NCBI GenBank assembly: GCA_024711125.1
Contig: JANJTM010000077.1
Span: 67,836 to 124,144, forward strand
From: Rhodothermales bacterium
GTDB taxonomy: Bacteria > Bacteroidota > Rhodothermia > Rhodothermales > UBA10348
DNA length: 56,309 bases
Direction of reading: 5' to 3'
Program-made: the position numbers and the translations under genes
Notes under the pieces: model-generated
Told to the model about the DNA's origin: nothing
Seen by the model: the letters and a program-made list of their open reading frames with translations, nothing else
Databases searched by the model: none
In this document: positions 24,453 through 54,075 of the stretch, in pieces
How the letters are laid out: every line of letters begins with the position of its first letter
Position numbering within the stretch: the stretch's first letter is position 1

Positions 24453-24460
24453 TATATTAC
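24453..24460 (+). promoter_or_regulatory. -7-like element TATATTAC ahead of the creatininase-to-AmpG series
   Basis: TATATTAC lies in the 118-nt gap between the divergent PAP2 and creatininase-family genes, 79 nt before ATG 24539. No TTG sits at the expected distance. It is the only promoter-like site before the five-gene series, whose later gaps are at most 35 nt. Confidence 0.4.
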
Positions 24461-24538: not shown

Positions 24539-25303
24539 ATGCCCAGACCCTGGATGCTCAAGGAGGCCGCCCTTCCGGATGTGCTTCGGCATCCCTGCGC
24601 GGTCGCCGTCCTGCCCTGGGGCGCCACCGAGGCGCACAATCGGCATCTTCCGTACGGCACCGACATCTACGAGTGCGACCACGTGGCCGCCGAGGCCGGG
24701 CGCATCGCCTGGGAAGCGGGTGCGCACGTCTCGATCCTTCCGACCGTTCCGTTCGGGGTCAATTCGGGTCAACTCGAGATCCCCATGACGCTGCACGTTT
24801 CGCCGGAGACCCAGACGGCGATCCTGGAGGACCTGGTTGCGGGGCTCGAAGCGCACGCGGTGCGCAAGTTCGTCATCCTCAACGGGCATGGCGGGAACGA
24901 TTTCCGCTCGATCGTGCGCTCGCTGCAGGCGACGTTTCCGGGGGTTTTCGTTTCCGTGGTGAACTGGTACCGGGTCGTCGACGACCGGGCGTTCTTCGAC
25001 GAGCCGGGAGACCATGCGGGGGAACTGGAAACCAGCCTCATGATGCACGTCGAGCCCGGTCTCGTTCGCCCGTTGGAGACCGCGGGACCGGGAGCCGGGC
25101 GCGCGGTCCGGTTGGCGGCACACCGGGAGGGATGGGCCTGGGCGCCGCGCCACTGGCCGTCGGCCACCGACGACACGGGGGTGGGCAATCCGAAAGCAGC
25201 CACCTCGGACAAGGGAGCCCGGTATTTCGCCGCGGTGACGGAACGCATCGCGGCCTATCTCGTGGACCTGGCCCGGGCAGACCTGGACGATCTCTATGCC
25301 TGA
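24539..25303 (+). CDS. Creatininase-family amidohydrolase
   Basis: 254 residues. The metal ligands of the creatinine amidohydrolase family are visible: GATEAHNRHLPYGTD near the N-terminus, VILNGHGGND in the middle, and DHAGELETSLM after it. The family includes creatininase, mycofactocin peptidase MftE and riboflavin-pathway formamide hydrolases, so the substrate is open. ATG 24539 begins the conserved N-terminus; the frame extends upstream only as non-coding. Its end overlaps the isoaspartyl peptidase start by 8 nt, and the order points to co-transcription with cell-wall genes downstream. Confidence 0.87.
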   Translation: MPRPWMLKEAALPDVLRHPCAVAVLPWGATEAHNRHLPYGTDIYECDHVAAEAGRIAWEAGAHVSILPTVPFGVNSGQLEIPMTLHVSPETQTAILEDLVAGLEAHAVRKFVILNGHGGNDFRSIVRSLQATFPGVFVSVVNWYRVVDDRAFFDEPGDHAGELETSLMMHVEPGLVRPLETAGPGAGRAVRLAAHREGWAWAPRHWPSATDDTGVGNPKAATSDKGARYFAAVTERIAAYLVDLARADLDDLYA

Positions 25304-26288
25304 CGCCGTCGGCACCCTTCGATCCGGCCGGGTTCCGCCTCCGGCGTCCACCGGTTCGGCTCCCTGCCTGCTGGTGCACGGTGGTGCCTGGGACATTCCC
25401 GACGCCTTCGTATCGGACCACCTGGAAGGCATCCAGGGCGCGATCGAGGCCGGGCGCGCCGTGCTGGAGACCGGCGGCTCGGCGGTGGCTGCGGTCACGG
25501 CCGCGGTTTCGTTCATGGAAGGGCACGGGGCCTTCGACGCGGGGTGCGGGGCCGTGCTGACGCGCAAGGGCACGGTGGAGCTGGACGCCGGGATCATGGA
25601 CGGCGAATCGCTCGCCTGGGGCGCGGTGGCCGGCGTACACCGCCTGCGCCATCCCGTCGAGGCGGCGCGGGCATTGCTGGACGACGGGGCCGGCGTGGTC
25701 CGTTTCCTCGTCGGCGAGGCCGCCGAACGCTTCGCCGCACACGAGGGGATCCTCCCGTGCGATCCGGCAACGCTCGTTCACGCCCGTGAGCGGCTGCGGT
25801 TCGCACACCTGCAGGGAGTGCAGGACTGGCATACGAGCGAGGCTTTCCTTCCGTCGAAGCGAGGGGGTCCGAGGGGCACGGTGGGCTGTGTCGCCCGGGA
25901 CGCTTCGGGGCGCATGGCCGCCGCCACCTCGACGGGCGGAACGCCTTTCCGTCCACCCGGCCGAGTGGGAGACTCCCCGTTGCCGGGCTGCGGGTACTAT
26001 GCCGACCGCGCCGGCGCCGCCTCGTCCACCGGCTGGGGAGAGGCGATCGCCTCGGCCAACCTCGCCGGACGGGCGGTGGCGGCGGTCGAGCGGGGCGGGG
26101 AGGCCGAAGTCGCGGCCCGGACCGAACTGGAGCGCATGGCCGACCGCGTGCACGGCGTAGCCGGCGAGCCGGCCACGGGTGGGCTCATCGTGCTCTCGGC
26201 CGACGGGTCCGGGGCGTGGGCGTTCACGACGCCGCGCATGGCGCGCGGCGGATGGGCCGAGGGCGCGGCGCCGTGGGCGCTGCTCTGA
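25296..26288 (+). CDS. Isoaspartyl peptidase/L-asparaginase (Ntn-hydrolase)
   Basis: 330 residues. The nucleophile is Thr195 in GPRGTVGCVARD, the point where the precursor would cleave itself into alpha and beta subunits. STGGTPFRPPGRVGDSPLPG follows, the classical substrate-binding segment of plant-type asparaginases. The enzyme removes N-terminal beta-aspartyl residues from dipeptides or hydrolyses asparagine. About 20 residues before LLVHGGAW are not part of the fold. It overlaps the upstream gene by 8 nt and lies 12 nt before the DigH-like gene, so it could serve peptide salvage alongside wall turnover; that link is inferred. Confidence 0.9.
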   Translation: MPDAVGTLRSGRVPPPASTGSAPCLLVHGGAWDIPDAFVSDHLEGIQGAIEAGRAVLETGGSAVAAVTAAVSFMEGHGAFDAGCGAVLTRKGTVELDAGIMDGESLAWGAVAGVHRLRHPVEAARALLDDGAGVVRFLVGEAAERFAAHEGILPCDPATLVHARERLRFAHLQGVQDWHTSEAFLPSKRGGPRGTVGCVARDASGRMAAATSTGGTPFRPPGRVGDSPLPGCGYYADRAGAASSTGWGEAIASANLAGRAVAAVERGGEAEVAARTELERMADRVHGVAGEPATGGLIVLSADGSGAWAFTTPRMARGGWAEGAAPWALL

Positions 26289-26300
26289 ATCCGGAATACC

Positions 26301-27824
26301 ATGGTCCCACGATCGATACTTCATTCGGCCCTGGTCCTGGCGACCGTCGGCGCCGTTCTCGTTGCGGCGCCGGGGTGTGCGGGCAGCCGCGAACTCGTGG
26401 GGGACTACACCGTTTCCGTGCCGGCAGGCACGATTCCTTCGGCCGACCGGGAGTTCCGCGCCGCGTGGATCGCGACCGTGGCGAACATCGACTGGCCGTC
26501 GCGCCCCGGTCTTCCGATCCGTGACCAGCAGCACGAGTTGCGCGCGATGCTGCAGCAGGCCGCCGCCATGCGGCTCAACGCGGTGGTCCTCCAGGTGCGA
26601 CCCGCGGCCGACGCGTTCTACCGGGACGGCCTCGAGCCGGTGTCGTACTATCTCACGGGGGTCGAGGGCGCGGATCCCGGCTGGGATCCCCTCGAGTTCG
26701 CCGTCGAGGAGGCCCACGGGCTCGGACTCGAGCTGCACGCGTGGTTCAACCCGTACCGGGCCGGCCATCCTACGGGGAAGGACCCCTCCTCCGGCCACGT
26801 ACGGGTCGCCCACCCGGACTGGGTGGTTCGATACGGAGACCTGTGGTGGCTCGATCCGGGACATCCGGGGGCCCGGGAGCACTCGCTCCGGGTGATCGAG
26901 GACGTCGTCCGACGCTACGATCTCGACGGTATCCACGTCGACGACTATTTCTATCCGTACCCGGTGCAGGATTCCACGGGCCGACGCGTGGAATTCCCCG
27001 ATTCGCTGTCGCGGCGTGCCGCCGTGGCGGCCGGGGAGTCCCGACCCGTCGACGAGTGGCGCCGCCACAACGTGGACGTCTTCATCCGCGCCATGTACGA
27101 GCGCACGAAGGCGATCAAACCGTGGGTGAAGGTCGGAATCAGCCCGTTCGGCATCTGGAGGCCGGGCCATCCGGAAGGAATACGCGGATTCGACCAGTAC
27201 GAAGGGCTGTATGCCGATGCCAGGCTCTGGCTCAGGGAGGGCTGGGTGGACTATTTCACGCCCCAGCTCTATTGGGCGCTCGATTCGTCCGGCCAGCCCT
27301 ACGAAAAGCTGCTCGCATGGTGGGTCGGCGAGAACGTGGTCGGGCGGCACCTGTGGCCCGGCAATTACGTCAGCCGGGTCATCCCGGCAGGCGGCGGGGA
27401 CTGGACCCCAGGGGAGATCGTCGGGCAGGTGGAAACGACGCGTCGGTACACCGACGGCAACGTTCACTTCTCGATGCGCGCCCTGATGCCTGGTCCCGGA
27501 TTGGATGCGGCCCTGTCGCGATCGGTTTACCGTGCGCCGGCCCTCGTTCCGGCCACGGATTGGCTCGGAGGGTCGCCGCCGGGCGTGCCGACCGCGGCCG
27601 TCCGCCTGCTGGGCAGCCGTACCGTACTCGACCTGCGCCCCTCGGCCCAAGGCGACGAGCCGTTCGCCTGGCACGTACGACTGCTCCATGGAAAACGCTG
27701 GACGATCCGCGTACTGCCCGGCCACGAACGCGCGATCCCGTTGGAGCGCCTGCCGGACCGGGTCGTGGTTTCGGCCGTGAATCGACTGGGGCAGGAGGGT
27801 CCGAACGTCGATGTTCGCCCGTAG
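26301..27824 (+). CDS. DigH/YddW-like glycosyl hydrolase (GHL10 family), envelope
   Basis: 507 residues. The N-terminus is a hydrophobic export signal with a Cys near residue 26 (weak lipobox APGC). The GHL10 catalytic barrel runs from about residue 52 (FRAAWIATVANIDWPS) through AWFNPYRAGHP, DGIHVDDYFYPYP, KVGISPFGIWRPG and DYFTPQLYWA. The C-terminal 100 residues look like a small beta domain. In E. coli, DigH cleaves peptidoglycan glycan strands from which amidases have removed the stem peptides. The next gene, overlapping by 14 nt, encodes an amidase-type protein, which supports the same role here. Confidence 0.88.
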   Translation: MVPRSILHSALVLATVGAVLVAAPGCAGSRELVGDYTVSVPAGTIPSADREFRAAWIATVANIDWPSRPGLPIRDQQHELRAMLQQAAAMRLNAVVLQVRPAADAFYRDGLEPVSYYLTGVEGADPGWDPLEFAVEEAHGLGLELHAWFNPYRAGHPTGKDPSSGHVRVAHPDWVVRYGDLWWLDPGHPGAREHSLRVIEDVVRRYDLDGIHVDDYFYPYPVQDSTGRRVEFPDSLSRRAAVAAGESRPVDEWRRHNVDVFIRAMYERTKAIKPWVKVGISPFGIWRPGHPEGIRGFDQYEGLYADARLWLREGWVDYFTPQLYWALDSSGQPYEKLLAWWVGENVVGRHLWPGNYVSRVIPAGGGDWTPGEIVGQVETTRRYTDGNVHFSMRALMPGPGLDAALSRSVYRAPALVPATDWLGGSPPGVPTAAVRLLGSRTVLDLRPSAQGDEPFAWHVRLLHGKRWTIRVLPGHERAIPLERLPDRVVVSAVNRLGQEGPNVDVRP

Positions 27825-30800
27825 CCCGACCCTGGTCTTCCTCGCGTCGGTCGTGGCCGTCGGCTGCTCGGGTCCACGGGCCGTGCCGACCCCGCCGGGT
27901 GCCGCGGCGGTGGAAGCCGCCGTCCGGGACGCGGTCACGCGCACATTCGTCGAGTGCCGCCCGGACCGGTGCGGCATGCGCCTGGACCGCGCATCGGCGG
28001 TCGATTCGGTACGTCTCCGGGACGGACGGGCGCGCGTGTACCTCAACGACGCGTTCGCGCAGGTACCGATCCGCGAGGAGGGTCTCGCCTCGATCCGGGC
28101 AGCCATCGGTCGGCACCTGGACCCGGCAATGCACCCCGGTACCGTCGATCTGATCGCGCTCGGACTTCCGGTCGACGAACTCGTCCCGAACCCCTTGCGG
28201 CGCTCGCTCCCCGCCGACGAGGCCCGAAGGCCGGACGTACGGCCCGAGCCGCGTCCCGTGGTGCGGCGCGTCACGAACGTCCCCGAGCCCTCCCGTGGCC
28301 TTTTCGGCCGCCATATCGCGCTCTGGCAGAGCCACGGGTGGTACTGGGAGCGCCGGCTGGGGCGGTGGGAGTGGCAGCGGGCGAGGCTGTTCCAGACCGT
28401 CGAGGACGTGTTTCCGACCGGATTCGTGCTTCCCTATCTCGTTCCGATGCTCGAGAGGGCCGGGGCCGAAGCGTGGACGCCCCGGGAGCGTGACCTGCAG
28501 GAACACCTGGTGGTCGTGGACAACGACGGGTCTTCGAATGCGTCGGTGTACGTGGAGGACGGTGCCTGGAGCGACACGCCGGGCGCGGGTTTCGGCGTGG
28601 GATCGATGCCGTATCGAGACCGCGAGAATCCCTTCGAGGCCGGGTCGGCCCGCTTCGCCGAGGCGGCGCCCGGCGGCTCGGCCGTCGCGGAGTGGCGTCC
28701 GACAATCCCGGAAGACGGAGCCTACGCGGTGTACGTGTCCTGGGCGCCGCACGACCGTGCGGCCGCAGCCGCCCACTACACCGTGCGCCACGCCGGGGGG
28801 TCCACGCGGTTCGTCGTCGACCAGCGCATGGCGTCCGGTACCTGGGTCTACCTCGGCACGTTCGACTTCCGGTCGGGCGCGGGACCTGACTCGGCCTCGG
28901 TGCGCCTCGACAACACGGGCGACGCCGGGACCGTGGTCACCGCCGACGCCGTGCGATTCGGCGGCGGCATGGGGCTCGTCGAGCGGGGCGGCTCGACGAG
29001 CGGACGCCCGCGCTGGACCGAGGCCGCGCGCTACCACCTGCAGTACTCGGGTATGCCCGCCGACCTCGTATACGCCGTGACGGGAGCGGTGGACGACTAC
29101 GGGGACGACTACCGGGGCCGCGGGGAGTGGGTCAATTATCTGAAGGGCGCGCCCTTCGGACCGAACCGCGACCGCTCGGCACGCGGCCTCGGCATTCCCG
29201 TGGACCTCTCGCTCGCGTTCCACACCGACGCCGGGGTCACGCGCACCGACTCGACCGTGGGCACCCTGATGATCTACTCGAGCCCCGGGGCCGACTCCCT
29301 GCGAGTCTTCCCGGACGGCATGTCCCGATTCGCGTCGCGGGACTTCGCCGACCTGCTCCAGAGCCAGATCGTCGCCGACATCCGCGCCCTGCACGACCCG
29401 GCGTGGAGCCGGCGCGGCCTCTGGGACCGGGATTATTCGGAAGCGTTCCGCCCCAACGTGCCCGCCGCGCTGCTCGAACTGCTGTCGCACCAGAACTTCG
29501 CCGACATGCGGTTCGGATTGGACCCCCGCTTCCGCATTACCGTGTCGCGCGCGATCTACAAGGCGATGGCCCGCTTCCTGGCGGCCCAGTACGGGGAGCC
29601 GGATCCGGTCATTCAGCCCCTGGCGCCGACACGCCTGCAGGCGCGGCTTTCCGGCGACGGCCGCGTCCGGCTGTCGTGGCGGGCGACGCCGGACCCGCTC
29701 GAGCCGTCTGCGATGCCCGACGGATACGTGCTCTACACGCGGAGGGGCGCCGCCGCGTTCGACGACGGCCGATCGGTCGCCGGAGACACCATGTGGGTCC
29801 CGATCGACGCGGGCGTCGATTACGCCTTCCGGGTCGAAGCCTGGAATGCCGGCGGGCGCAGCGCACCGTCGGAGACGGTAGCCGCCGCGTGGGTGCCGGG
29901 AGCGCCGAAGGCCCTGCTCGTCTCGGCCTTCGACCGGCTGTCGGCCCCGGCCTCGATCGATCTCGGCCCGTGGCGCGGTTTCCTCGACGGGACGGACCAT
30001 GGGGTGGCCGACCGGGTCGAACTTTCGTTCGTGGGAGCACAGAAGGAATTCGACGCGGACGTTCCGTGGCGGGACGACGACGATCCGGGCCACGGGGCCA
30101 GCTACGGCGATCAAGAGGCCACCGTGTCGGCCGGCAACACGTTCGATTACCCCGCAGTGGTGGGACCCTCCGTGCGGCGCGCCGGCTTCTCGGTCGAAAC
30201 CGCGAGTGACGAGGCGGTCGAGGAGGGCGGAATTCCGACCGGTACGCCGATCGTCGTGCTCCTGCTCGGCGAGGAACGGGAAACGACGCCCGGAGCGGCT
30301 TCGGAGCCGGCGTTCGCGCCTTTTCCGGCGTCGATGGTCGACGCGCTGCGTGCACACGCCGATCGCGGAGGAGCGCTGCTGGTTTCCGGGTCCTACGTCG
30401 GGACCTCGCTGTACGAGCACCCGTCGACGGCGGCCGATGCCGTGTTCGAGGATTCGTCGTCGGCCGCGCGCGCGGCCTTCGCGCGCGATGTCCTGCACGT
30501 GACCTGGCGCACCGGCCGCGCGGTGCGGGAGGGGGGCGTGTTTTCCGTGGACGCGTCCGTGGGTCCCCGGACCTTCGGATTCCACGTGCACCGCAACCCG
30601 CACCGGTACGCTGCCGAGTCGCCGGACGCCCTCGATCCCGTCGGGGACGGCGCCCGGACGCTCCTGCGCTACGCCGAGTCGGGCATGAGCGCGGCGGTCG
30701 GGTACGAAGGACCCCACAGGGCCGTCTCGGTCGGATTTCCCATCGAAACGATCGTGAGCGACACGGATCGCGACCGGCTCGTAGCTTCCCTCCTGGGCTT

Positions 30801-30825
30801 CCTGGTTCCCCGCGCGTCCCGCTGA
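27811..30825 (+). CDS. Amidase_3-like lipoprotein with inserted golvesin-type domain (xanthan-lyase-like)
   Basis: 1004 residues. Lipoprotein signal with Cys19 (VVAVGC). Residues 35-130 form a GerMN-like alpha/beta domain (tentative). The amidase fold starts at about 163 (GLFGRHIALWQSHG, His175), breaks off, and resumes at about 460 with SLAFHTDAG (His471) and ALLELLSHQNFADM (Glu556). These fit the two His ligands and the catalytic Glu of Amidase_3. The interruption at about 272-385 is a golvesin/xanthan-lyase-type beta domain (YAVYVSWAP, VYLGTFDF, VTADAVRFG). A fibronectin-III-like domain (600-695) and an alpha/beta C-terminal domain follow. I infer cell-wall amidase activity with glycan or surface binding. 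It overlaps the DigH-like gene and precedes AmpG. Confidence 0.78.
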   Translation: MFARSPTLVFLASVVAVGCSGPRAVPTPPGAAAVEAAVRDAVTRTFVECRPDRCGMRLDRASAVDSVRLRDGRARVYLNDAFAQVPIREEGLASIRAAIGRHLDPAMHPGTVDLIALGLPVDELVPNPLRRSLPADEARRPDVRPEPRPVVRRVTNVPEPSRGLFGRHIALWQSHGWYWERRLGRWEWQRARLFQTVEDVFPTGFVLPYLVPMLERAGAEAWTPRERDLQEHLVVVDNDGSSNASVYVEDGAWSDTPGAGFGVGSMPYRDRENPFEAGSARFAEAAPGGSAVAEWRPTIPEDGAYAVYVSWAPHDRAAAAAHYTVRHAGGSTRFVVDQRMASGTWVYLGTFDFRSGAGPDSASVRLDNTGDAGTVVTADAVRFGGGMGLVERGGSTSGRPRWTEAARYHLQYSGMPADLVYAVTGAVDDYGDDYRGRGEWVNYLKGAPFGPNRDRSARGLGIPVDLSLAFHTDAGVTRTDSTVGTLMIYSSPGADSLRVFPDGMSRFASRDFADLLQSQIVADIRALHDPAWSRRGLWDRDYSEAFRPNVPAALLELLSHQNFADMRFGLDPRFRITVSRAIYKAMARFLAAQYGEPDPVIQPLAPTRLQARLSGDGRVRLSWRATPDPLEPSAMPDGYVLYTRRGAAAFDDGRSVAGDTMWVPIDAGVDYAFRVEAWNAGGRSAPSETVAAAWVPGAPKALLVSAFDRLSAPASIDLGPWRGFLDGTDHGVADRVELSFVGAQKEFDADVPWRDDDDPGHGASYGDQEATVSAGNTFDYPAVVGPSVRRAGFSVETASDEAVEEGGIPTGTPIVVLLLGEERETTPGAASEPAFAPFPASMVDALRAHADRGGALLVSGSYVGTSLYEHPSTAADAVFEDSSSAARAAFARDVLHVTWRTGRAVREGGVFSVDASVGPRTFGFHVHRNPHRYAAESPDALDPVGDGARTLLRYAESGMSAAVGYEGPHRAVSVGFPIETIVSDTDRDRLVASLLGFLVPRASR

Positions 30826-30860
30826 GCCCCGTTCCCTCTCGAGATAACCTTCACAAGCCC

Positions 30861-32726
30861 ATGTCAGAGAACGGCAAGTCTGCCCGCGGCGCCTGGTGGT
30901 GGGTCCCCTCGCTGTACTACGCGGAGGGACTTCCGTACGTGGTCGTCATGGTCGTCTCGGTGATCATGTACAAGCGGCTCGGCATCTCGAATGCCGAGAT
31001 CGCGCTGTACACGAGCTGGCTCTACCTGCCGTGGGTGATCAAGCCGCTGTGGAGCCCGATCGTCGACATCCTGCGCACGCGGCGGTTCTGGATCGTGACG
31101 ATGCAGCTCGTGATCGGGGGAGGTCTCGCCGGTGTCGCGCTCACGCTCAACGCTCCCGACGCCTTCCGCTGGTCGCTGGCGTTCCTGTGGCTCCTGGCGT
31201 TCAGTTCCGCGACCCACGACATCGCGGCCGACGGGTTCTACATGATGGGCCTGTCGCAGCACGACCAGGCCTGGTTCGTCGGCATCCGGTCGACATTCTA
31301 CCGCGCGGCCATGATCACCGGGCAGGGGCTGCTCGTCATCCTGGCAGGCTACCTGGAGACCTCGACGGGTCTCGACCCCGTGCGGTTCGTGGTGCAGGCC
31401 GAGCCCGGGGTCGTTGAAACCCGGTTCGAGCATCCCGATTCCCTGCACGGGCCCGAAGCGGCAGCCGCGCTGCCCTCCCTGTCCGCACCTGCGGAACCGC
31501 TGCGCGCCCCGACCGGGGCCGTGGATGCGTCCCGAGCCGATTCGCTGGTGGCGCTGGCCCGGACGTGGAACGAGGAGCACGGGTTCGTCGCGCCGCCCGC
31601 GACCTCGTCGACCGCTTCTGCCGACGGCGAATCGTGGTGGACCCGCGCGGTCTCCGGGCCGCTCGGTCGTGTCATCGCCGACCGGTTCGGGGAGGAGCGG
31701 ACCGCCACGGAAGCGGTTCGACGCGTGGGTGCGGCCGTTCTCGTTCCGGTCGTACTCGACGGCACGAACGCCGACGAAATCGTGCTCAACGTGACCCACG
31801 AGGACGGCGACCCCAGCGTACGCCTGCTGCACGGGGAGCGGATCACGTTCGCCCCCGGGCAGGGCCGGCGCACGGCGCTGGCCGTCGTCCAGCTCGACCC
31901 GAAGCTCGACGCGGCGACGAGCGCGGCGTTCGTGGGGCGCTCCGGCAACATCCCTCTCGCATGGTCCATCACGTTCTTCGTGCTGGCGGGTCTCTTCGTG
32001 GGGTTCTTCGCGTGGCACCGCGCGGTGCTGCCGAGGCCGGCCGAGGACCGACCCGGCGCCGGCCAGGCGGTGGGCGACGTCGTGCGCGAGTTCCTTTCGA
32101 CGTTCGCGCGCTTCTTCCGCCGCCGTGACATCGGAGTGATCCTGCTGTTCCTGCTCTTCTACCGGTTCGCCGAGGCGCAGCTCGTCAAACTCGCATCCCC
32201 TTTCCTGCTCGATACGCGGGAAGCGGGCGGGCTCGCCCTGACGACCGGCGAGGTCGGGTTCGTCTACGGAACCGTGGGCATCATCGCCCTGACCCTGGGG
32301 GGAATTCTCGGGGGCTTCCTCGCCGCGCGCGACGGGCTGAAACGGTGGCTCTGGGTCATGGTGGCGGCCATCAACCTTCCGAACCTGGCGTACGTCTGGC
32401 TGGCGTACACCACGCCCGAGAGCCTGTGGGCGGTCAACGCGGCCGTCGCGGTCGAACAGTTCGGATACGGATTCGGCTTCACCGCGTACATGCTCTACAT
32501 GATCTACGTATCCGACGGGCCGCACAAGACGGCGCATTACGCGATCTGCACGGGCTTCATGGCCCTCGGCATGATGATCCCCGGCATGTTCAGCGGCTGG
32601 CTCGAAGAGCTGGTGGGCTACCGCCACTTCTTCGTATGGGTCGTGATCGCCACGATCCCCGGATTCCTCGTCGCACGGTTCATTCCGCTCGCCCCGGAAT
32701 TCGGTCGGAAGCAGCCGGAGGCCTGA
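30861..32726 (+). CDS. AmpG-like MFS permease with large periplasmic insert
   Basis: 621 residues, a 12-helix major facilitator with AmpG-family marks: LYYAEGLPY in helix 1, LYTSWLYLPWVIKPLWSPIVD in helices 2-3, and SSATHDIAADGFYM. AmpG imports anhydro-muropeptides for wall recycling. Unlike E. coli AmpG, about 200 residues (168-365) are inserted between helices 5 or 6 and the next pair; they carry no hydrophobic helix and should be a soluble periplasmic domain. The gene is 35 nt after the amidase-golvesin gene and convergent with the TonB receptor. The position strongly supports a muropeptide or wall-sugar substrate. Confidence 0.85.
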   Translation: MSENGKSARGAWWWVPSLYYAEGLPYVVVMVVSVIMYKRLGISNAEIALYTSWLYLPWVIKPLWSPIVDILRTRRFWIVTMQLVIGGGLAGVALTLNAPDAFRWSLAFLWLLAFSSATHDIAADGFYMMGLSQHDQAWFVGIRSTFYRAAMITGQGLLVILAGYLETSTGLDPVRFVVQAEPGVVETRFEHPDSLHGPEAAAALPSLSAPAEPLRAPTGAVDASRADSLVALARTWNEEHGFVAPPATSSTASADGESWWTRAVSGPLGRVIADRFGEERTATEAVRRVGAAVLVPVVLDGTNADEIVLNVTHEDGDPSVRLLHGERITFAPGQGRRTALAVVQLDPKLDAATSAAFVGRSGNIPLAWSITFFVLAGLFVGFFAWHRAVLPRPAEDRPGAGQAVGDVVREFLSTFARFFRRRDIGVILLFLLFYRFAEAQLVKLASPFLLDTREAGGLALTTGEVGFVYGTVGIIALTLGGILGGFLAARDGLKRWLWVMVAAINLPNLAYVWLAYTTPESLWAVNAAVAVEQFGYGFGFTAYMLYMIYVSDGPHKTAHYAICTGFMALGMMIPGMFSGWLEELVGYRHFFVWVVIATIPGFLVARFIPLAPEFGRKQPEA

Positions 32727-32741: not shown

Positions 32742-34736
32742 TCAGAATCGCACGCCGATACCGGCGGCGAGGTGGCGTCCCGGCGCCGGCTCGTAGAATC
32801 GCCCGCCCCGGGCGTTCGGAAGTACCGCAGCCGCACGCTCGAGATCGAGCGCGTTGCGCACCGCGACGAACGGGGTCACGGCCGCGCCGGCGACCGCGAG
32901 CGTCCGGGACACCTCGGCGTTGAGGGACGCGGCCGACGGATCCCTCGCCGTCCCGGCGTCGTCGGCCGACAGCGCGGAACGCGCGTCGAGCGAGACTTCA
33001 GCGTGCATCGCCCGGGTCGTTCGCGACACGGCCAACCGGAGCACGCGTTCGGGCACGCCGGGAACCGGGATTCCGCTCTCCCGGAATCGGAATCTCGACC
33101 ACAGCACGACGGCCGTCGCTTGCCAACCGCGCCCCGGGGCCCACGCCACGGACCCGTCGACCCCCCTGGAGGTAGCGCGTCCCGCGTTGCGGTAGACCGT
33201 GCGCCCGTCCACCGGGGACTCGAAGGAGGACAACAGGTCGCGGATGGACAGGTCGAACACCGATACGTCGATCGCCCACGCATTCCCTTCCGATCGCACC
33301 CCGGCTTCCATTCCCCGGGTCTGCTGCGGTCCGAGGTCCGGGTTGAATCCGGGTCGGCCGTCAGCCCGGTTCACGAGTTCCACGGTCGTGGGCGACTCGA
33401 AGGTGGTGGACCACGAGGCGTAGGCGGTCGTCCGTCCCACGGACCACCGGAGGCCCAGGACGGGGCTTGCCTCACCGAGCCGGCGGCTTCCGGACTGGTC
33501 CCCGTCGGTAGTGATCCCATCGTCCAGGGCGAGGGTGAGCCGGTCCCAGCGGAATCCCGCCTGACCGGTGAGTCCTCGCGCGACCCGAAGCGATCCGAGA
33601 ACACTCGCCGAGAGCGCCGTCACGGTCTCGCGCTGCTCGAGTGTGCGCACCGCGCCCTCCTTTCCTCCCTCGTTCGCCGCGTTCACCCGGTCGTCATCCT
33701 GCGTGGCCGCATCGATCGCGACGTCGAGCCCGAAGCGATCCGACCCCCGGCGCCAGGCGGCCCGCAGCCCGGCCGCGCGGCGGTCGACCCCGACCCAGGC
33801 AAAGGGCAGGGGATTCTCGAGCCGCCGACCCAGCCCCCAACCCGATACCTCGGCGTTTCCGCCGGCTGCGGGCAGGTCCAGGCGGAGCCCGGCGTGGCCC
33901 TGCCGCGACACCTTGCCGGATGCGGTCGCCACGTAGCGCGGATCGGCGCCCCTGCGGTCGACGACAAGTTCCGCGGCCGTGAGCGCACCGGGCGCCTCGA
34001 CGTCCTGGTCCACCGCGCCCGCCGACCAGCGGAGCACCGCGTTCCGGGACACGGAGATGCGTCCCGAGGCGCCGAGCCGCACGAGGCGTCCCCGCGCGTG
34101 GTCGCGATACCCCTCGGTGTCGAGAACCGAAGCCCACACCCGGAGCGGGCCGGCGGCGGTCCTTGCGCCGGCCTCGACGAGCCCCGACCGGGTCGCCCAC
34201 GCCGAACCCGTGAGGGCAGCCCGAACGAAGGGCAACTCGCCGTCACCGGGAGCGGTCTCGAAGGCGAGCACGCCGCCGGACCCGTTTCCCCAGAACCGCG
34301 CCGACGGCCCACGGATCGACTCGACCCTACGCACGATGCCCGGGTCGATGGCTTCCGTGACCGCTTGCCCGTCGGGGAGCGTGAGTGGAACGCCGTCCAG
34401 TACGACCTGGACGCCGCGCACGCCGAAGCCCGCGCGGGCTCCCTGTCCCCGGACCGCGATCCGGTCGCCCAAGGCGAGGTGCGCGCGGTCCGAAGCGTAG
34501 ACCCCGGGGATCGCGCGAAGCAGCCCGGCGGCCGATACCTCCTTGGGGGCATCGACTTCGGCGATGCCCCGCACCCTGACGGTCAGCGCGAAGGCCGCGT
34601 CGTCGACGCTCGCGACCATGCCGCGGGCGGCTTCCACCCGTACTTCGTCGAGAGTGACGACGCTGGTGTCGGCCGACTGCGCCGAGACCTGGAGCGCGAC
34701 CGCCGGGAACAGGAACGGGACGAGGAAGCGACGCAT
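32742..34736 (-). CDS. TonB-dependent outer-membrane receptor
   Basis: 664 residues with a signal peptide ending VSAQS, a TonB-box-like segment (VVTLDEVRVEA), a plug domain (LLRAIPGVYASD, IAVRGQGARAGFGVRG, VVLDGVPLTLPDGQA) and a 22-strand-type barrel ending in a C-terminal Phe (LAAGIGVRF). Plug text is closest to the FecA/iron-siderophore side of the family, but the ligand cannot be told. It lies downstream of the SpoIID-like gene on the same strand (68-nt gap) and ends 15 nt from the AmpG stop. Confidence 0.92.
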   Translation of the reverse strand: MRRFLVPFLFPAVALQVSAQSADTSVVTLDEVRVEAARGMVASVDDAAFALTVRVRGIAEVDAPKEVSAAGLLRAIPGVYASDRAHLALGDRIAVRGQGARAGFGVRGVQVVLDGVPLTLPDGQAVTEAIDPGIVRRVESIRGPSARFWGNGSGGVLAFETAPGDGELPFVRAALTGSAWATRSGLVEAGARTAAGPLRVWASVLDTEGYRDHARGRLVRLGASGRISVSRNAVLRWSAGAVDQDVEAPGALTAAELVVDRRGADPRYVATASGKVSRQGHAGLRLDLPAAGGNAEVSGWGLGRRLENPLPFAWVGVDRRAAGLRAAWRRGSDRFGLDVAIDAATQDDDRVNAANEGGKEGAVRTLEQRETVTALSASVLGSLRVARGLTGQAGFRWDRLTLALDDGITTDGDQSGSRRLGEASPVLGLRWSVGRTTAYASWSTTFESPTTVELVNRADGRPGFNPDLGPQQTRGMEAGVRSEGNAWAIDVSVFDLSIRDLLSSFESPVDGRTVYRNAGRATSRGVDGSVAWAPGRGWQATAVVLWSRFRFRESGIPVPGVPERVLRLAVSRTTRAMHAEVSLDARSALSADDAGTARDPSAASLNAEVSRTLAVAGAAVTPFVAVRNALDLERAAAVLPNARGGRFYEPAPGRHLAAGIGVRF

Positions 34737-34804: not shown

Positions 34805-36244
34805 TCACCATGCCACGCGGCGCGAGATCACCCGGCCGGTGGAGGAGGCGGTGGAGTCGCGGGCGGGGCCGGACCACCCGGCGGGCCGAGCGGCGTTCCG
34901 GGCGGCCGCGTTGGCGCGCAGTGCGGCCGAGGCGCGGCCGGCGGTCGACGTCGGCGCTTCTTCGATCCCGGGTGCGGCGGCCGGGGTCACCGATACGGGA
35001 TCGGACGAGGACGGGCGCGTCGCTGCGAGCATGGGCCCATCCGCGTTCGAGACGCGTGCCGTTTCGAGCCGGACGTCGCGATAGTAGAAGTCGAGGATCT
35101 CCCGGTAGCTCTTCCCGTCGATCGCCATGCCGTGCGCGCCCCACTGCGAGAGGCCGACCCCGTGCCCGTACCCGCGGCCCGAAAACACGTAGCTTCCGGC
35201 GTCGGTACGCAGGTCGAACAGGGTCGAACGCAGGGCCGTCGGCCCGAAAGTCCGGATGATCTGCAGGCGGAAGTCCTGGGTGGAAAGCTCCCGGTCGCGT
35301 CCGCCGGATCCCCGCAGGCGCAGGGTACGCGCGCGGCCATCCGGGGACCTTTCGCCGATGGCGATCGAGCGCACGTCGGCGCCGAAGGCGTCCCGAAGCA
35401 CCGCGTGCAGCCGGTCGGCGTCGATCTCCCAGGTCCACGATCGGTGCGGCGAGACGGCGTCCCATGCGTCCTTCCGACCGCGCAGGTACGGAAGTGCCGC
35501 CGCCTGCCAGACGTCCTCGTTGTTGGCCGTGTGGCCTCCGCTCGACGAGTAGTAGGTCGCCACGATCAGGTCGCCGCCGTAGGTCAGCACCTCGCCGGCC
35601 GTAGCGCGCGCGGCCTCGAGCGCGCGCGCCGTCACGGCCCGGTTTCCCTTGTACACTTGGGACAGCGTGTGGTCGACCTGGTCGTACTCGGCCGATCGAA
35701 GGGCCTTCAGAGCGTACGTGCGGGCGATCACCGCCATGGCCTTCGAGCCCTCGACGTCGTCGAGCCCGTACTCCGAGGCCACCACGCTGGCCACGTAGTC
35801 TTCGAGCGGAACGTGGTTGACGAGCCGCAGCGCAGACGAGCCGGCCTCGGCGGTGGCGTGGATCGACCCCAGGTAACTGCGCGTGGCCGAGCCGACCTGC
35901 AGCGTGACCGCTTCGGTCTCACGCGGCTCGATGCGCACGGCGGGCGCCTGCAGCGTGCCGCGGGCCGACTCCACCCGGATATCCCGGCCGTCCCGGACGA
36001 GGGTCATGCGGGCCCCTCCCGGCAGCGAGAATCGCGGGCGCTCGTCGTCGCCCGCGAACACGTCGAGTCCGGACGCGGGAGCGTCCACGACCACCGAGCG
36101 GGGCGCCAGCTGTTCCAGGAGGCGCACGCGAAGCACGCCGGGGATCTCCCGGTCGGGGTTCGGAGCGGCGGTCGCCGGGCGCAGCGCCACGAACAGGCAC
36201 ACCACGGCCACGACCCGCAGGGACGGGAAGGGGTTCGAAGACAT
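34805..36244 (-). CDS. SpoIID/LytB-family secreted lytic transglycosylase
   Basis: 479 residues with an N-terminal signal sequence. The SpoIID domain is clear: PLEDYVASVVASE with the catalytic Glu158, RTYALKALRSAEYD, YSSSGGHTANNEDVW and the GRGYGHGVGLSQWGAHGMA box. Bacillus SpoIID cleaves glycan strands already stripped of stem peptides. Non-spore-formers of the Bacteroidota group also carry SpoIID-like proteins. The last 75 residues are Ala/Pro/Ser-rich and probably disordered. Upstream are accD and tsaB on the same strand, 177 nt away; downstream is the TonB receptor. Confidence 0.88.
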   Translation of the reverse strand: MSSNPFPSLRVVAVVCLFVALRPATAAPNPDREIPGVLRVRLLEQLAPRSVVVDAPASGLDVFAGDDERPRFSLPGGARMTLVRDGRDIRVESARGTLQAPAVRIEPRETEAVTLQVGSATRSYLGSIHATAEAGSSALRLVNHVPLEDYVASVVASEYGLDDVEGSKAMAVIARTYALKALRSAEYDQVDHTLSQVYKGNRAVTARALEAARATAGEVLTYGGDLIVATYYSSSGGHTANNEDVWQAAALPYLRGRKDAWDAVSPHRSWTWEIDADRLHAVLRDAFGADVRSIAIGERSPDGRARTLRLRGSGGRDRELSTQDFRLQIIRTFGPTALRSTLFDLRTDAGSYVFSGRGYGHGVGLSQWGAHGMAIDGKSYREILDFYYRDVRLETARVSNADGPMLAATRPSSSDPVSVTPAAAPGIEEAPTSTAGRASAALRANAAARNAARPAGWSGPARDSTASSTGRVISRRVAW

Positions 36245-41433: not shown

Positions 41434-42462
41434 ATGGCCTCCAAGAAGAAGCAGGGCACCGGCGAGGCGCTCTATATCGGCATCGATCTCGGCACGTCGC
41501 GCAGCGCGATCGTCGCCTCGAACGGAAAACGCGACTGGATCGACAGCTACGTCGGGTGGCCCCGGGACTTCGTCGCGAAGAAGATGCTCGGCAAGCCCAT
41601 CCTCTACGGCGCCGACGCTCTCGCGAACCGGCTTTCGCTCCACCTCGTGCGCCCGCTCGAGGCCGGCGTGATCCGCGACGGATCGCAGAGGGCCGAGGAG
41701 GCCGTGCGGGAGCTGGTGCATCACCTCATCCGCCAGGTGGACCCCGGAGACGCGACGGAGATCTACGCGGCGGTGGGCGTACCGGCCGAGGCGCTTCGCG
41801 TCAACAAGCTCGCGATCCGGAACGCGGTGAAGGAGTATGCCGACTCGCTGATGGTGGTGTCGGAACCCTTTGCCGTCGCCTACGGTCTCGGGACGCTGAA
41901 CAACGCGCTCGTCATCGATATCGGTGCCGGTACGGCCGACTTCTGCATTCTCCACGGTACCATGCCGGGCGAGGAGGACCAGCGCACGCTCGCGATGGCG
42001 GGCGACTGGCTGGATCAGCAGCTCCACGAGCGGCTGGCCGAGCGATTCCCGGAGGCCTCCATCAGCCTCCCGATGGTGAAGTCCTTCAAGGAGGAACACG
42101 GGTTCATAGGCAATCACAGGGACCGCGTCAAGGTCAAGGTGCCCGTGAAGGGCGTTCCGACGTCCATCGAAATCACCGCCGACCTGCGACGGACGTGCGA
42201 GAGCCTTCTCCCGGTGCTCGCCGAGGCGACGACCGATCTCATCGCCCGCTACGAGCCCGACTTCCAGGAGGAAGTCAAGCAGAACATCTTCCTCGCCGGA
42301 GGGGGCAGCCAGATCAAGGGTCTCGCCGAAGGGCTCGGCGAGCAACTGGCCTCCTACGGTCAGTTCACGGTGCGCACGATCCAGGACCCGCTCTTTGCCG
42401 GCGCCGAGGGCGCGCTGGCGCTCGCGCAGGACATGCCGGCCGAGTACTGGGTGGAGATGTGA
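41434..42462 (+). CDS. MamK-like bacterial actin
   Basis: 342 residues. The actin-fold signature is complete: phosphate-1 loop LYIGIDLGTSRSAIV (13-27), the catalytic-Glu segment VVSEPFAVAYG (Glu144), phosphate-2 VIDIGAGTADFC (160-171) and the adenosine motif NIFLAGGGSQIKGL (284-297). Length, spacing and the texts VGWPRDFV, GVPAEALRVNK, GTMPGEEDQ and the ending PAEYW follow magnetosome filament protein MamK far better than MreB, ParM or FtsA. No other mam gene is nearby. It starts 1 nt after the amidase stop. I infer a cytoplasmic filament used in wall cleavage, division or placement of something other than magnetosomes. Confidence 0.85.
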   Translation: MASKKKQGTGEALYIGIDLGTSRSAIVASNGKRDWIDSYVGWPRDFVAKKMLGKPILYGADALANRLSLHLVRPLEAGVIRDGSQRAEEAVRELVHHLIRQVDPGDATEIYAAVGVPAEALRVNKLAIRNAVKEYADSLMVVSEPFAVAYGLGTLNNALVIDIGAGTADFCILHGTMPGEEDQRTLAMAGDWLDQQLHERLAERFPEASISLPMVKSFKEEHGFIGNHRDRVKVKVPVKGVPTSIEITADLRRTCESLLPVLAEATTDLIARYEPDFQEEVKQNIFLAGGGSQIKGLAEGLGEQLASYGQFTVRTIQDPLFAGAEGALALAQDMPAEYWVEM

Positions 42463-50986: not shown

Positions 50987-52351
50987 TCAGAAGTACCGCC
51001 CGGTCGAGACGATGAAGCCGAGCACGACGACGATGGCGATCGGAAGGACGAATCGCACGACGATTCCCCACGCCGAGGCAAACGCCATGCGGTGCCCACT
51101 GGCCTCCAACGCCTCGATCGCCTTCGGAATGCCCCATTTCCACCCCACGAAAACACAGGTCGCGAGCGCGCCGATCGATAGCGCGTAGTTGCCCCAGATG
51201 ATGTTCTGGATGTCGAGGAAGCTGGTGTCGAAGAGGAACGAGGTGAAAACGTCGGCTCCGCCCTGGGAGAGGGCCGACGGCACGGCGAGCACGAAGCAGA
51301 CGCCGCCGAGCACCCAGGCCGCCTTCTCCCGCTTCCACTTGCGTTCGTCGACGAAATAGGCGACCACGACCTCGAGCAGGCTGATGGTCGACGTCAGCGC
51401 GGCGATCGCGAGCAGGGCGTAGAAGGCGATGGCGAAGAGCGTGCCCGCCGGAAGGCTGTTGAAGACGGTCGGAAGCACGACGAACACCAGGCCCGGGCCG
51501 GCGGCCGGGTCGAGACCCGCGGAGAACAACGCCGGGAACATGATGAGCCCCGCGAGCACCGCGACCGACGTGTCGGCGAGCGCGACGAGCGCTCCGGCCT
51601 GCGGCATGTTCTCCTCCTTGGGGAAGTACGAGCCGTAGGTCACCATGGCGCCCATGCCGAGGCTGAGCGAAAAGAGCGCCTGCCCGAGCGCAGCCATGAC
51701 CGCGCCGGCGGACAGCTCCGAAAAATCGGGTACCAACAGGTACTCGAGCCCGGCCATGCCGCCGGGCAGGGTCAACGCGCGGATCGCGAGGACCAGCAGG
51801 ATGGCGAATAGCGCCGGCATGAGGATCTTGGACGCCCGTTCGATGCCCGCGCTGACACCGCCGCGCACGATGAGAATCGTGAGCAGCAGGAAGAGCGCCG
51901 TGTAGCCTACGGCCTGCAGCGGGTCGCCGATGAGTCCCGTGAAGAGCGCACCCGACGCATCGGCGTCCATGGCCGCTCCGAAGTCGCCCATGAAGGCGTG
52001 TCCCAGGTACCCGAGCGTCCATCCGGCGACGACCGAGTAGAAGGCCAGGATGCCGAAACCGGCGGCGATGCCGAGGTATCCCACGGCCGGCCACCAGGAG
52101 TTGGGGACCAGCGCGCGGAAGGCGCCGACCGCGTTGCGTTCGGTCTTCCGCCCCATGGCGAGTTCCGAGAAGAGCACCGGGATGCCGATGAGCAGCACGC
52201 AGCCCAGATACAGCAGCACGAAGGCGCCGCCCCCGTTCTCGCCCGCCATGTACGGAAAACGCCAGATGTTGCCCAGGCCGATGGCCGAGCCGGCCGCGGC
52301 GAGGATGAAGCCGAGGCGGCCGGACCACTGTCCGCGGGAGGCGGTAGACAT
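50987..52351 (-). CDS. Sodium-dependent transporter, NSS/SNF (SLC6) family (tandem copy 1)
   Basis: 454 residues from ATG 52351. LeuT-fold family marks: AAAGSAIGLGNIWRFPYMAGE with the unwound helix 1, ENGGGAF, and LSLGMGAMVTYGSYFP in helix 6. Twelve or so hydrophobic helices. NSS proteins import amino acids or related small molecules with Na+. The protein is closely similar to, and exactly as long as, the next copy at 52.7-54.1 kb. An 18-residue upstream extension of the frame is not conserved in the paralogue. Confidence 0.93.
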   Translation of the reverse strand: MSTASRGQWSGRLGFILAAAGSAIGLGNIWRFPYMAGENGGGAFVLLYLGCVLLIGIPVLFSELAMGRKTERNAVGAFRALVPNSWWPAVGYLGIAAGFGILAFYSVVAGWTLGYLGHAFMGDFGAAMDADASGALFTGLIGDPLQAVGYTALFLLLTILIVRGGVSAGIERASKILMPALFAILLVLAIRALTLPGGMAGLEYLLVPDFSELSAGAVMAALGQALFSLSLGMGAMVTYGSYFPKEENMPQAGALVALADTSVAVLAGLIMFPALFSAGLDPAAGPGLVFVVLPTVFNSLPAGTLFAIAFYALLAIAALTSTISLLEVVVAYFVDERKWKREKAAWVLGGVCFVLAVPSALSQGGADVFTSFLFDTSFLDIQNIIWGNYALSIGALATCVFVGWKWGIPKAIEALEASGHRMAFASAWGIVVRFVLPIAIVVVLGFIVSTGRYF

Positions 52352-52380
52352 GACGGGTCGGGGTTGATGTGAAGAGGCGG

Positions 52381-52389
52381 CGAAGGATA
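52381..52389 (-). promoter_or_regulatory. Probable -7 region of NSS symporter copy 1
   Basis: TATCCTTCG (minus strand, 52389-52381) lies 29 nt before ATG 52351. The equivalent position before copy 2 has TATTCTTCG, and in both the site runs on as CCGCC, so the promoter region was duplicated and kept together with the gene. Confidence 0.45.
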
Positions 52390-52466
52390 CTCGCAACCTC
52401 GGCAACCCGAAAGAGCCCCGACAGGCCTTAATCGCCCTTTAATCAGGGGGCGCGGTCGCGCACGGA

Positions 52467-52710: not shown

Positions 52711-54075
52711 TCAGAAGTACTGCCCCGTGAGGACGATGTACCCCAGCACGATCGCGATGGCGATCGGCGAGAGGAAACGCACCACGAAGGCCCACGCCGA
52801 GCGCAGCGGCATGACGTGTCCGCTGGCCTCGAGGCTCTCTAGGCCCTTGCCGACGGTCCATTTCCACCCGACGAAGAGGCAGGTGGCCAGCGCGCCGATC
52901 GAAAGCGCGTAGTTGCCCCAGATGATGTTCTGGATGTCGAGGAAGCTGGTGTCGAAGAGGAAGGAGGTGAAGACGTCGGCGCCGCCCTGGGAGAGGGCCG
53001 ACGGCACGGCGATGAGGAAACAGACCGAGCCGAGCACCCATGCCGCCTTCTCCCGCTTCCAGCCGCGTTCGTCGACGAAGTAGGCGACGACGACCTCGAG
53101 CAGGCTGATCGTCGAGGTCAGCGCGGCGATCGCGAGCAGGGCGTAGAAGGCAATCGCGAAGAGCGTGCCGGCCGGAAGGCTGTTGAACACGGTCGGAAGC
53201 ACGACGAAGACGAGGCCGGGACCGGCAGCCGGGTCGAGACCGGCCGAAAACAGCGCCGGAAACATGATGAGACCCGCCAGGATCGCGATCGAGGTATCGG
53301 CGACCGCGACCATGGCGCCGGCAAAGGGCATGTTCTCTCGCTTCGGGAAATAGGAGCCGTAGGTCACCATGGCGCCCATGCCGAGGCTGAGCGAGAAGAG
53401 CGCCTGCCCCAGCGCGGCCATCACCGAGCCGGCCGTCATCTTCGAGAAGTCGGGCTTGAGCAGGTAGGAGAGGCCTTCCATTCCGCCCGGAAGCGTGACC
53501 GAGCGGACGGCGAGCACGATCAGGATGGCCAGCAGGGCGGGCATGAGGATCTTGGCGGCCCGCTCGATGCCGGAGCTGACACCGCCCCTCACGATCAGGA
53601 TCGTCAACAGCAGGAATCCCGCGGTATAGGCGATGGCCTGCGTCGGCGAGCCGATGAGGCTCGTGAAGAGCGCGTTCGACTGCTCGGCCGTCATCGCGGC
53701 GCCGAAATCGCCGAGTACGGCGTGACCCAGGTAGCCGAGCGTCCAGCCGGCGACGACCGAGTAGAAGGCCAGGATGCCGAAGCCGGCGGCGATGCCGAGG
53801 TAGCCGACCGCGGGCCACCAGGTGTTCGGAACGAGTGCGCGGAAGGCGCCCACCGCGTTGCGCTCGGTCTTCCGCCCCATGGCGAGCTCACTGAACAGCA
53901 CCGGGAGTCCGATCAGCAGGACGCAGGCCAGGTACAGCAGCACGAACGCCCCGCCGCCGTTTTCGCCGGCCATGTACGGGAAACGCCAGATGTTGCCGAG
54001 GCCGACGGCCGAGCCGGCGGCCGCCAGGATGAAGCCGAGGCGGCCGGACCACTGTCCGCGGGATGCATTCGCCAT
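52711..54075 (-). CDS. Sodium-dependent transporter, NSS/SNF (SLC6) family (tandem copy 2)
   Basis: 454 residues. Same signatures as copy 1 (AAAGSAVGLGNIWRFPYMAGE, ENGGGAF, LSLGMGAMVTYGSYFP). Differences concentrate in the loop after helix 3-4 (about 130-150), around PDFSKMTAG, and in the C-terminal cytoplasmic segment (KWTVGKGLESLEASGHVMPL). The high similarity, even in DNA, suggests recent duplication or gene conversion. It lies upstream of copy 1 on the minus strand, with a 359-nt structured spacer between. Confidence 0.93.
   Translation of the reverse strand: MANASRGQWSGRLGFILAAAGSAVGLGNIWRFPYMAGENGGGAFVLLYLACVLLIGLPVLFSELAMGRKTERNAVGAFRALVPNTWWPAVGYLGIAAGFGILAFYSVVAGWTLGYLGHAVLGDFGAAMTAEQSNALFTSLIGSPTQAIAYTAGFLLLTILIVRGGVSSGIERAAKILMPALLAILIVLAVRSVTLPGGMEGLSYLLKPDFSKMTAGSVMAALGQALFSLSLGMGAMVTYGSYFPKRENMPFAGAMVAVADTSIAILAGLIMFPALFSAGLDPAAGPGLVFVVLPTVFNSLPAGTLFAIAFYALLAIAALTSTISLLEVVVAYFVDERGWKREKAAWVLGSVCFLIAVPSALSQGGADVFTSFLFDTSFLDIQNIIWGNYALSIGALATCLFVGWKWTVGKGLESLEASGHVMPLRSAWAFVVRFLSPIAIAIVLGYIVLTGQYF

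Follow-up and report, generated by a model that had tools for sequence, protein, structure and literature searches.

A conserved three-gene unit with a predicted split amidase is likely to strip, cut and import wall glycan in a Rhodothermales bacterium

In the peptidoglycan recycling of Escherichia coli, the amidase acts in the cytoplasm, after import. AmpG of this organism imports anhydromuropeptides, and its DigH can act on denuded glycans, freeing anhydro-fragments from their ends (PMC12288456). Tannerella forsythia carries an ampG operon (Tanf_08345-08370) listed as 'xanthane lyase', gtf, gtf, lytB, ampG and ybbC in the available portion of PMC5388701, and the portions of PMC5388701 and PMC7670621 at hand tie this operon to scavenging of N-acetylmuramic acid (MurNAc). 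A periplasmic amidase activity has been inferred in T. forsythia, with no gene assigned to it in the available text of PMC7670621. Here, we analyzed a run of five genes at positions 24539-32726 of a 56,309-nucleotide stretch of Rhodothermales DNA (the window), which a sequence-only reading had interpreted as one unit for stripping, cutting and importing wall fragments. The analysis supported a unit of the last three genes, namely digH, an amidase-golvesin gene encoding a newly recognized split amidase, and ampG; the five-gene unit did not find such support.

The five proteins were each used to search a family sample of 27 genomes, the window's own among them, and the coordinates of the matches were compared. 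The digH gene (26301..27824, + strand) adjoins the amidase-golvesin gene (27811..30825, +) in 23 of the 27 genomes, and the latter adjoins ampG (30861..32726, +), also in 23. All three genes adjoin each other in 21 genomes; in 19 of these the trio lies on a single contig, and in G310 and G313 it spans two contigs, across a contig break. A spoIID gene lies convergently downstream of the unit in all eight family relatives with enough downstream DNA. The isoaspartyl peptidase gene iaaA is found at most 1 kb from digH in a minority of the genomes (7/27), and the creatininase gene stands beside the unit in the window's own genome only (1/27). The sequence-only reading had named a gene order confined to this genome as grounds for refutation; the order of all five genes is so confined and that of the last three is not, so the unit proposed earlier is supported for its last three members and not for the two hydrolases at its front. 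We consider it likely that the conserved unit of digH, the amidase-golvesin gene and ampG, perhaps together with the nearby SpoIID/LytB gene, strips, cuts and imports wall glycan.

The central member of this unit was assigned by its predicted fold. An AlphaFold2 model of the protein (predicted local distance difference test score, pLDDT, 89.1; predicted template modelling score, pTM, 0.91) was compared by VIA-align with 1000 chains ranked by Foldseek. Nineteen entries of the Amidase_3 type, including Rv3717, AmiA and CwlV, reached Z scores of 15.5-19.4 over model residues ~161-594, and the Clostridioides difficile structure 4rn7 was fitted over 183/186 residues with a root-mean-square deviation of 2.2. 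Residues 228-384 were fitted by the golvesin part of the Paenibacillus xanthan lyase 6f2p (Z 19.8), the C-terminal part of this lyase being the best match of the golvesin domain in the PDB. Since the golvesin fit falls inside the region fitted by the amidases, the catalytic domain is interrupted by a golvesin domain, and this interruption may explain why the family carries the label 'xanthan lyase'. The Amidase_3 domain with its golvesin insertion is followed by an fn3 domain (~605-690) and a glutamine-amidotransferase-like domain (~697-1004). Four residues, H175, E198, H471 and E556, were invariant in 23 aligned full-length sequences, and again in a set of 35 made up of the window protein and 34 sequences from the 80 named loci described below. 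We take this pattern of His, Glu, His and Glu to represent the zinc ligands and the catalytic Glu of Amidase_3, which makes these residues candidate sites here. Compared with the Amidase_3 amidases AmiA/AmiB, CwlV, Rv3717/Ami1 and LytH, the window protein has the same fold and the same candidate metal and catalytic residues, but differs in the golvesin domain within its catalytic domain and in the fn3 and amidotransferase-like domains that follow. The inserted golvesin domain is probably sugar-binding.

Searches of Pfam and the PDB by sequence alone missed the amidase, Pfam returning Golvesin_C (3.9e-24) and a weak fn3 match; a profile scan of 35 homologues and the fold revealed it. When E values up to 10 were permitted, Pfam Amidase_3 matched 34 of these 35 homologues (best 2.1e-5; window protein 0.0034). 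With Foldseek alone, the xanthan lyase, fn3 domains and long alignments due to chance outranked the amidases, the first of which appeared at rank 18. NCBIfam held no family for the window protein or for three Bacteroidota copies. Inspected by eye, the N-terminus is hydrophobic and has a Cys within an imperfect lipobox. The C-terminal domain (29899-30822) resembles the middle domains of beta-galactosidases and PdxT-type proteins (Z ~13). Matches to the protein were present in 46 genomes of a phylum sample of 296; in 27 they extended over most of its length, and the remaining ones covered the golvesin or the C-terminal part only. In the open-licence literature, nothing was found that joins golvesin, amidase and peptidoglycan, or xanthan lyase, Bacteroides and muramoyl; golvesin with 'Bacteroid' gave, judging by the listing, a lectin paper alone, and none of the matches listed tied xanthan lyase to ampG or peptidoglycan.

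The DigH-like protein is a predicted glycan-cleaving enzyme of the GHL10 family (PF02638, 205.5 bits against a cut-off of 27.9; 1.4e-60), whose sole PDB sequence match is Cwp19 (5oq2, 1.1e-81), a lytic transglycosylase. It shares the GHL10 family with E. coli DigH (YddW) and Cwp19, whereas here the gene is found beside an amidase and an AmpG gene. Its N-terminus, likewise judged by eye, is lipoprotein-like, being hydrophobic and having a Cys in an imperfect lipobox. A second DigH-like gene (46% identity) lies on the same contig upstream of the window (G000:C73:52903-54063). A further candidate enzyme acting on denuded glycan is the SpoIID/LytB-domain protein encoded at 34805-36244 on the opposite strand (TIGR02669, 2.4e-61, over the cut-off), a gene that the sequence-only reading did not mention.

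The permease of the unit belongs to the AmpG family, its top four PDB sequence matches and top five fold matches all being AmpG structures determined by cryo-electron microscopy (AlphaFold2 model, pLDDT 81.3). It is set apart from these by an alpha/beta insert of 196 residues (~168-362; 31362-31946) between the predicted transmembrane helices TM5 and TM6, presumably periplasmic according to the usual topology of the major facilitator superfamily. Such an insert, of 134-202 residues, is common to 9 of the 18 Bacteroidota AmpGs compared, and in none of five inserts tested did a Pfam family exceed its cut-off. A tree of 41 AmpGs, 13 of the long and 28 of the short form, required seven changes, at least four of them forced by starred branches. 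The long-form AmpGs did not form a single clade in this tree, and the insert was gained or lost several times.

In the pathway we propose, the amidase with its inserted golvesin domain would work in the periplasm, detaching stem peptides from MurNAc; the peptide-free glycan would be cut by DigH, possibly with the help of SpoIID, and AmpG would import the resulting disaccharides. NamZ, GH3/NagZ-type and MurQ enzymes encoded elsewhere could process these further; the window's genome carries a single gene each for NamZ and MurQ (the latter over the cut-off) and five for GH3, all away from the unit. We infer that the three genes are co-transcribed and that their products have the activities and locations, and act in the order, given here. 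The chain from amidase through DigH to AmpG, which had already been suggested from the letters of the DNA, is supported by the adjoining genes, by the fold and invariant residues of the amidase and by the roles given for DigH and AmpG in PMC12288456.

Across genomes, the amidase and AmpG go together. AmpG (E up to 1e-30) was present in 27/27 genomes of the phylum sample with a full-length amidase and in 62/269 others (Fisher p 3e-16, kinship ignored); counted by genus, the figures were 22/22 and 33/117 (p 6e-11, kinship ignored). The named loci were the best 80 of at least 581 confirmed relatives of the amidase, many of them on short contigs, and came from Bacteroidota, Ignavibacteria, KSB1, Calditrichia and Neomarinimicrobiota. 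Near the amidase, they encoded AmpG in 26/80, SpoIID in 24/80, NamZ-type proteins in 19/80, IaaA in 2/80 and creatininase in 0/80 cases, and in 18/80 the amidase, GT2, SpoIID and AmpG genes followed each other in this order on one strand. On example loci, the families GT2, DUF4922, NamZ, SSF, GH3-beta-lactamase, SpoIID and GHL10 were confirmed, with MurQ over its cut-off. A MurK-like kinase cluster was set aside as weakly supported, with no Pfam match and a NagK match (1.6e-5) far under the cut-off.

Loci of this kind in Bacteroidia (such as L108 and L075), with genes for the amidase-golvesin protein, GT2, DUF4922, SpoIID, AmpG and NamZ, have an order like that of the T. forsythia operon as given in the available source. 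The window differs from that operon in that digH lies beside the amidase gene, spoIID is antisense, and no GT2 or DUF4922 gene was seen between them; NamZ is likewise absent from the unit, and the single direction of the T. forsythia genes is not found. By its gene order and label, Tanf_08345 may be a homologue of the window amidase, and the T. forsythia operon offers a partial precedent for the unit. We lean, by a modest degree, towards a broader proposal: that the 'xanthan lyase' encoded in salvage operons of Bacteroidota is an amidase of peptidoglycan with a sugar-binding domain inserted in it and corresponds to the periplasmic amidase inferred in Tannerella, that glycan is stripped before import with AmpG carrying mainly peptide-free disaccharides, and that this route extends to Ignavibacteria, KSB1, Calditrichia and Neomarinimicrobiota, all of which have the amidase-golvesin protein.

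Several observations weigh against the unit and pathway proposed here. The whole trio was not shown in 6/27 family genomes; contig ends account for this in G298, G307 and G308, G309 (74% complete) lacks all three genes, and the other two are G300 and G301. The Fisher values for the amidase and AmpG ignore kinship. DigH was near the amidase in only 11/80 named loci, and its link to the amidase is therefore mainly a trait of the family. The window amidase reaches 17.9 bits with PF01520, below the Pfam cut-off of 27, a shortfall we attribute to the inserted domain, which splits the profile; the fold, the invariant residues and Golvesin_C thus speak for the Amidase_3-golvesin assignment made earlier and the Pfam threshold against it. 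Likewise, the permease attains 166.6 bits with TIGR00901 (7.1e-49), under the curated cut-off of 350, as does an AmpG-type protein of Bacteroides fragilis (178.7 bits). Finally, a scan of 23.5-35 kb for sigma-70-type promoters, with Bacteroidota-type promoters outside its scope, gave 0 sites against 0.5 expected from shuffles. The single promoter-like site that had been placed before the five genes was not confirmed.

The low Pfam score also bears on a different view of the golvesin protein, by which it would be non-catalytic or act otherwise, as a glycan-binding scaffold, an activator of amidases or the true polysaccharide lyase of its label. The best match of its golvesin domain, in the Paenibacillus xanthan lyase, fits this view, but the resemblance is limited to residues 228-384, the remainder of the N-terminal region matching amidases, and none of the four candidate active-site residues changes in either alignment (23 and 35 sequences); we regard such a function as very unlikely. 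Alternatively, the trio might serve the separation of daughter cells or remodelling of the wall, with import by AmpG as a by-product and neither nutrition nor recycling as the selected function. DigH and the amidases of E. coli work at the septum according to the accessible part of PMC12288456, yet in Bacteroidia the amidase gene has genes for salvage (NamZ, MurQ, AmpG) as its neighbours and the T. forsythia operon is linked to MurNAc scavenging in the portions of its sources available, which makes this explanation unlikely.

The least probable alternative, in our judgment, is a single functional operon of all five genes, with IaaA and the creatininase acting on peptides or amides that have been imported or released. 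The five same-strand open reading frames were confirmed, with overlaps of 8 and 14 nucleotides and gaps of 12 and 35 nucleotides running through all of them, and iaaA is near digH in some relatives; in G179 and G305, however, an antisense reading frame separates the two. Creatininase was more common in genomes of the phylum sample with the amidase (13/27) than in others (47/269; Fisher p 6e-4, kinship ignored), an enrichment that leans towards the earlier joining of the front hydrolases to the pathway but may reflect kinship. Adjacency to the unit is confined to the window's genome, also among the listed coordinates of the 60/296 genomes with a creatininase (E up to 1e-30), and creatininase was unmatched near the unit in 27 loci and in the best 80 named loci (two sets that share some genomes). 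In 15 relatives, its orthologues (49-61% identity, one partial) lie elsewhere in the genome. None of the other query genes was near them in the stretches of 10 relatives examined, and a scan of 10 neighbouring proteins, 2 of them without a match, gave the types GATase_5, PALP, UvrC, YbjQ, DUF58, OmdA and thioredoxin. The peptidoglycan of this phylum is not expected to contain isoaspartyl bonds. The open-licence literature never pairs 'isoaspartyl' with 'peptidoglycan recycling', and its titles and abstract openings on creatininase and peptidoglycan make no mention of wall recycling. The creatininase is probably not part of the unit; we regard both front hydrolases as neighbours rather than pathway steps.

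The creatininase-family hydrolase (24539..25303, +) matches PF02633 (4.2e-54; 183.9 bits, cut-off 31.3), its closest solved structure being 3lub (E 5.5e-64), and falls under the NCBIfam cut-offs of the MftE and creatininase equivalogs; its start is uncertain, the frame being open from 23900. The isoaspartyl peptidase/L-asparaginase IaaA (25296..26288, +; Asparaginase_2, PF01112, 7.4e-77), a lineage-specific neighbour, has E. coli-type beta-aspartyl peptidases as its PDB matches. A signal peptide was not seen by eye in either protein; hence, any action of theirs would be cytoplasmic. Upstream of the run lies a divergent PAP2 gene, and by eye only a TATATT near 24453 was noted, in the region common to both. 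The scan for sigma-70 promoters and terminators gave no signal over chance level. Between ampG and spoIID, a TonB-dependent receptor gene (32742-34736, -) shows PqqU as its best NCBIfam relation (4.4e-57, far under the cut-off), and a receptor gene occupies the same place in G179, G305 and G306. Further downstream, the window encodes a protein with an MreB/actin-like ATPase domain (41434-42462, +; MreB_Mbl, 1.5e-22), a relative of which lies near the unit in one named locus (L110), and tandem genes of the sodium:neurotransmitter-symporter type (50987-52405 and 52711-54075, -) with near-identical N-termini, the family scan having been run on the first.

If the proposal is true, a large family named after an unrelated polysaccharide lyase gains a testable function, and the periplasmic amidase activity inferred in T. 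forsythia (PMC7670621) would have a candidate gene. Strip-first recycling, in which the amidase would act before import, could then be tested across the Bacteroidota and neighbouring phyla.

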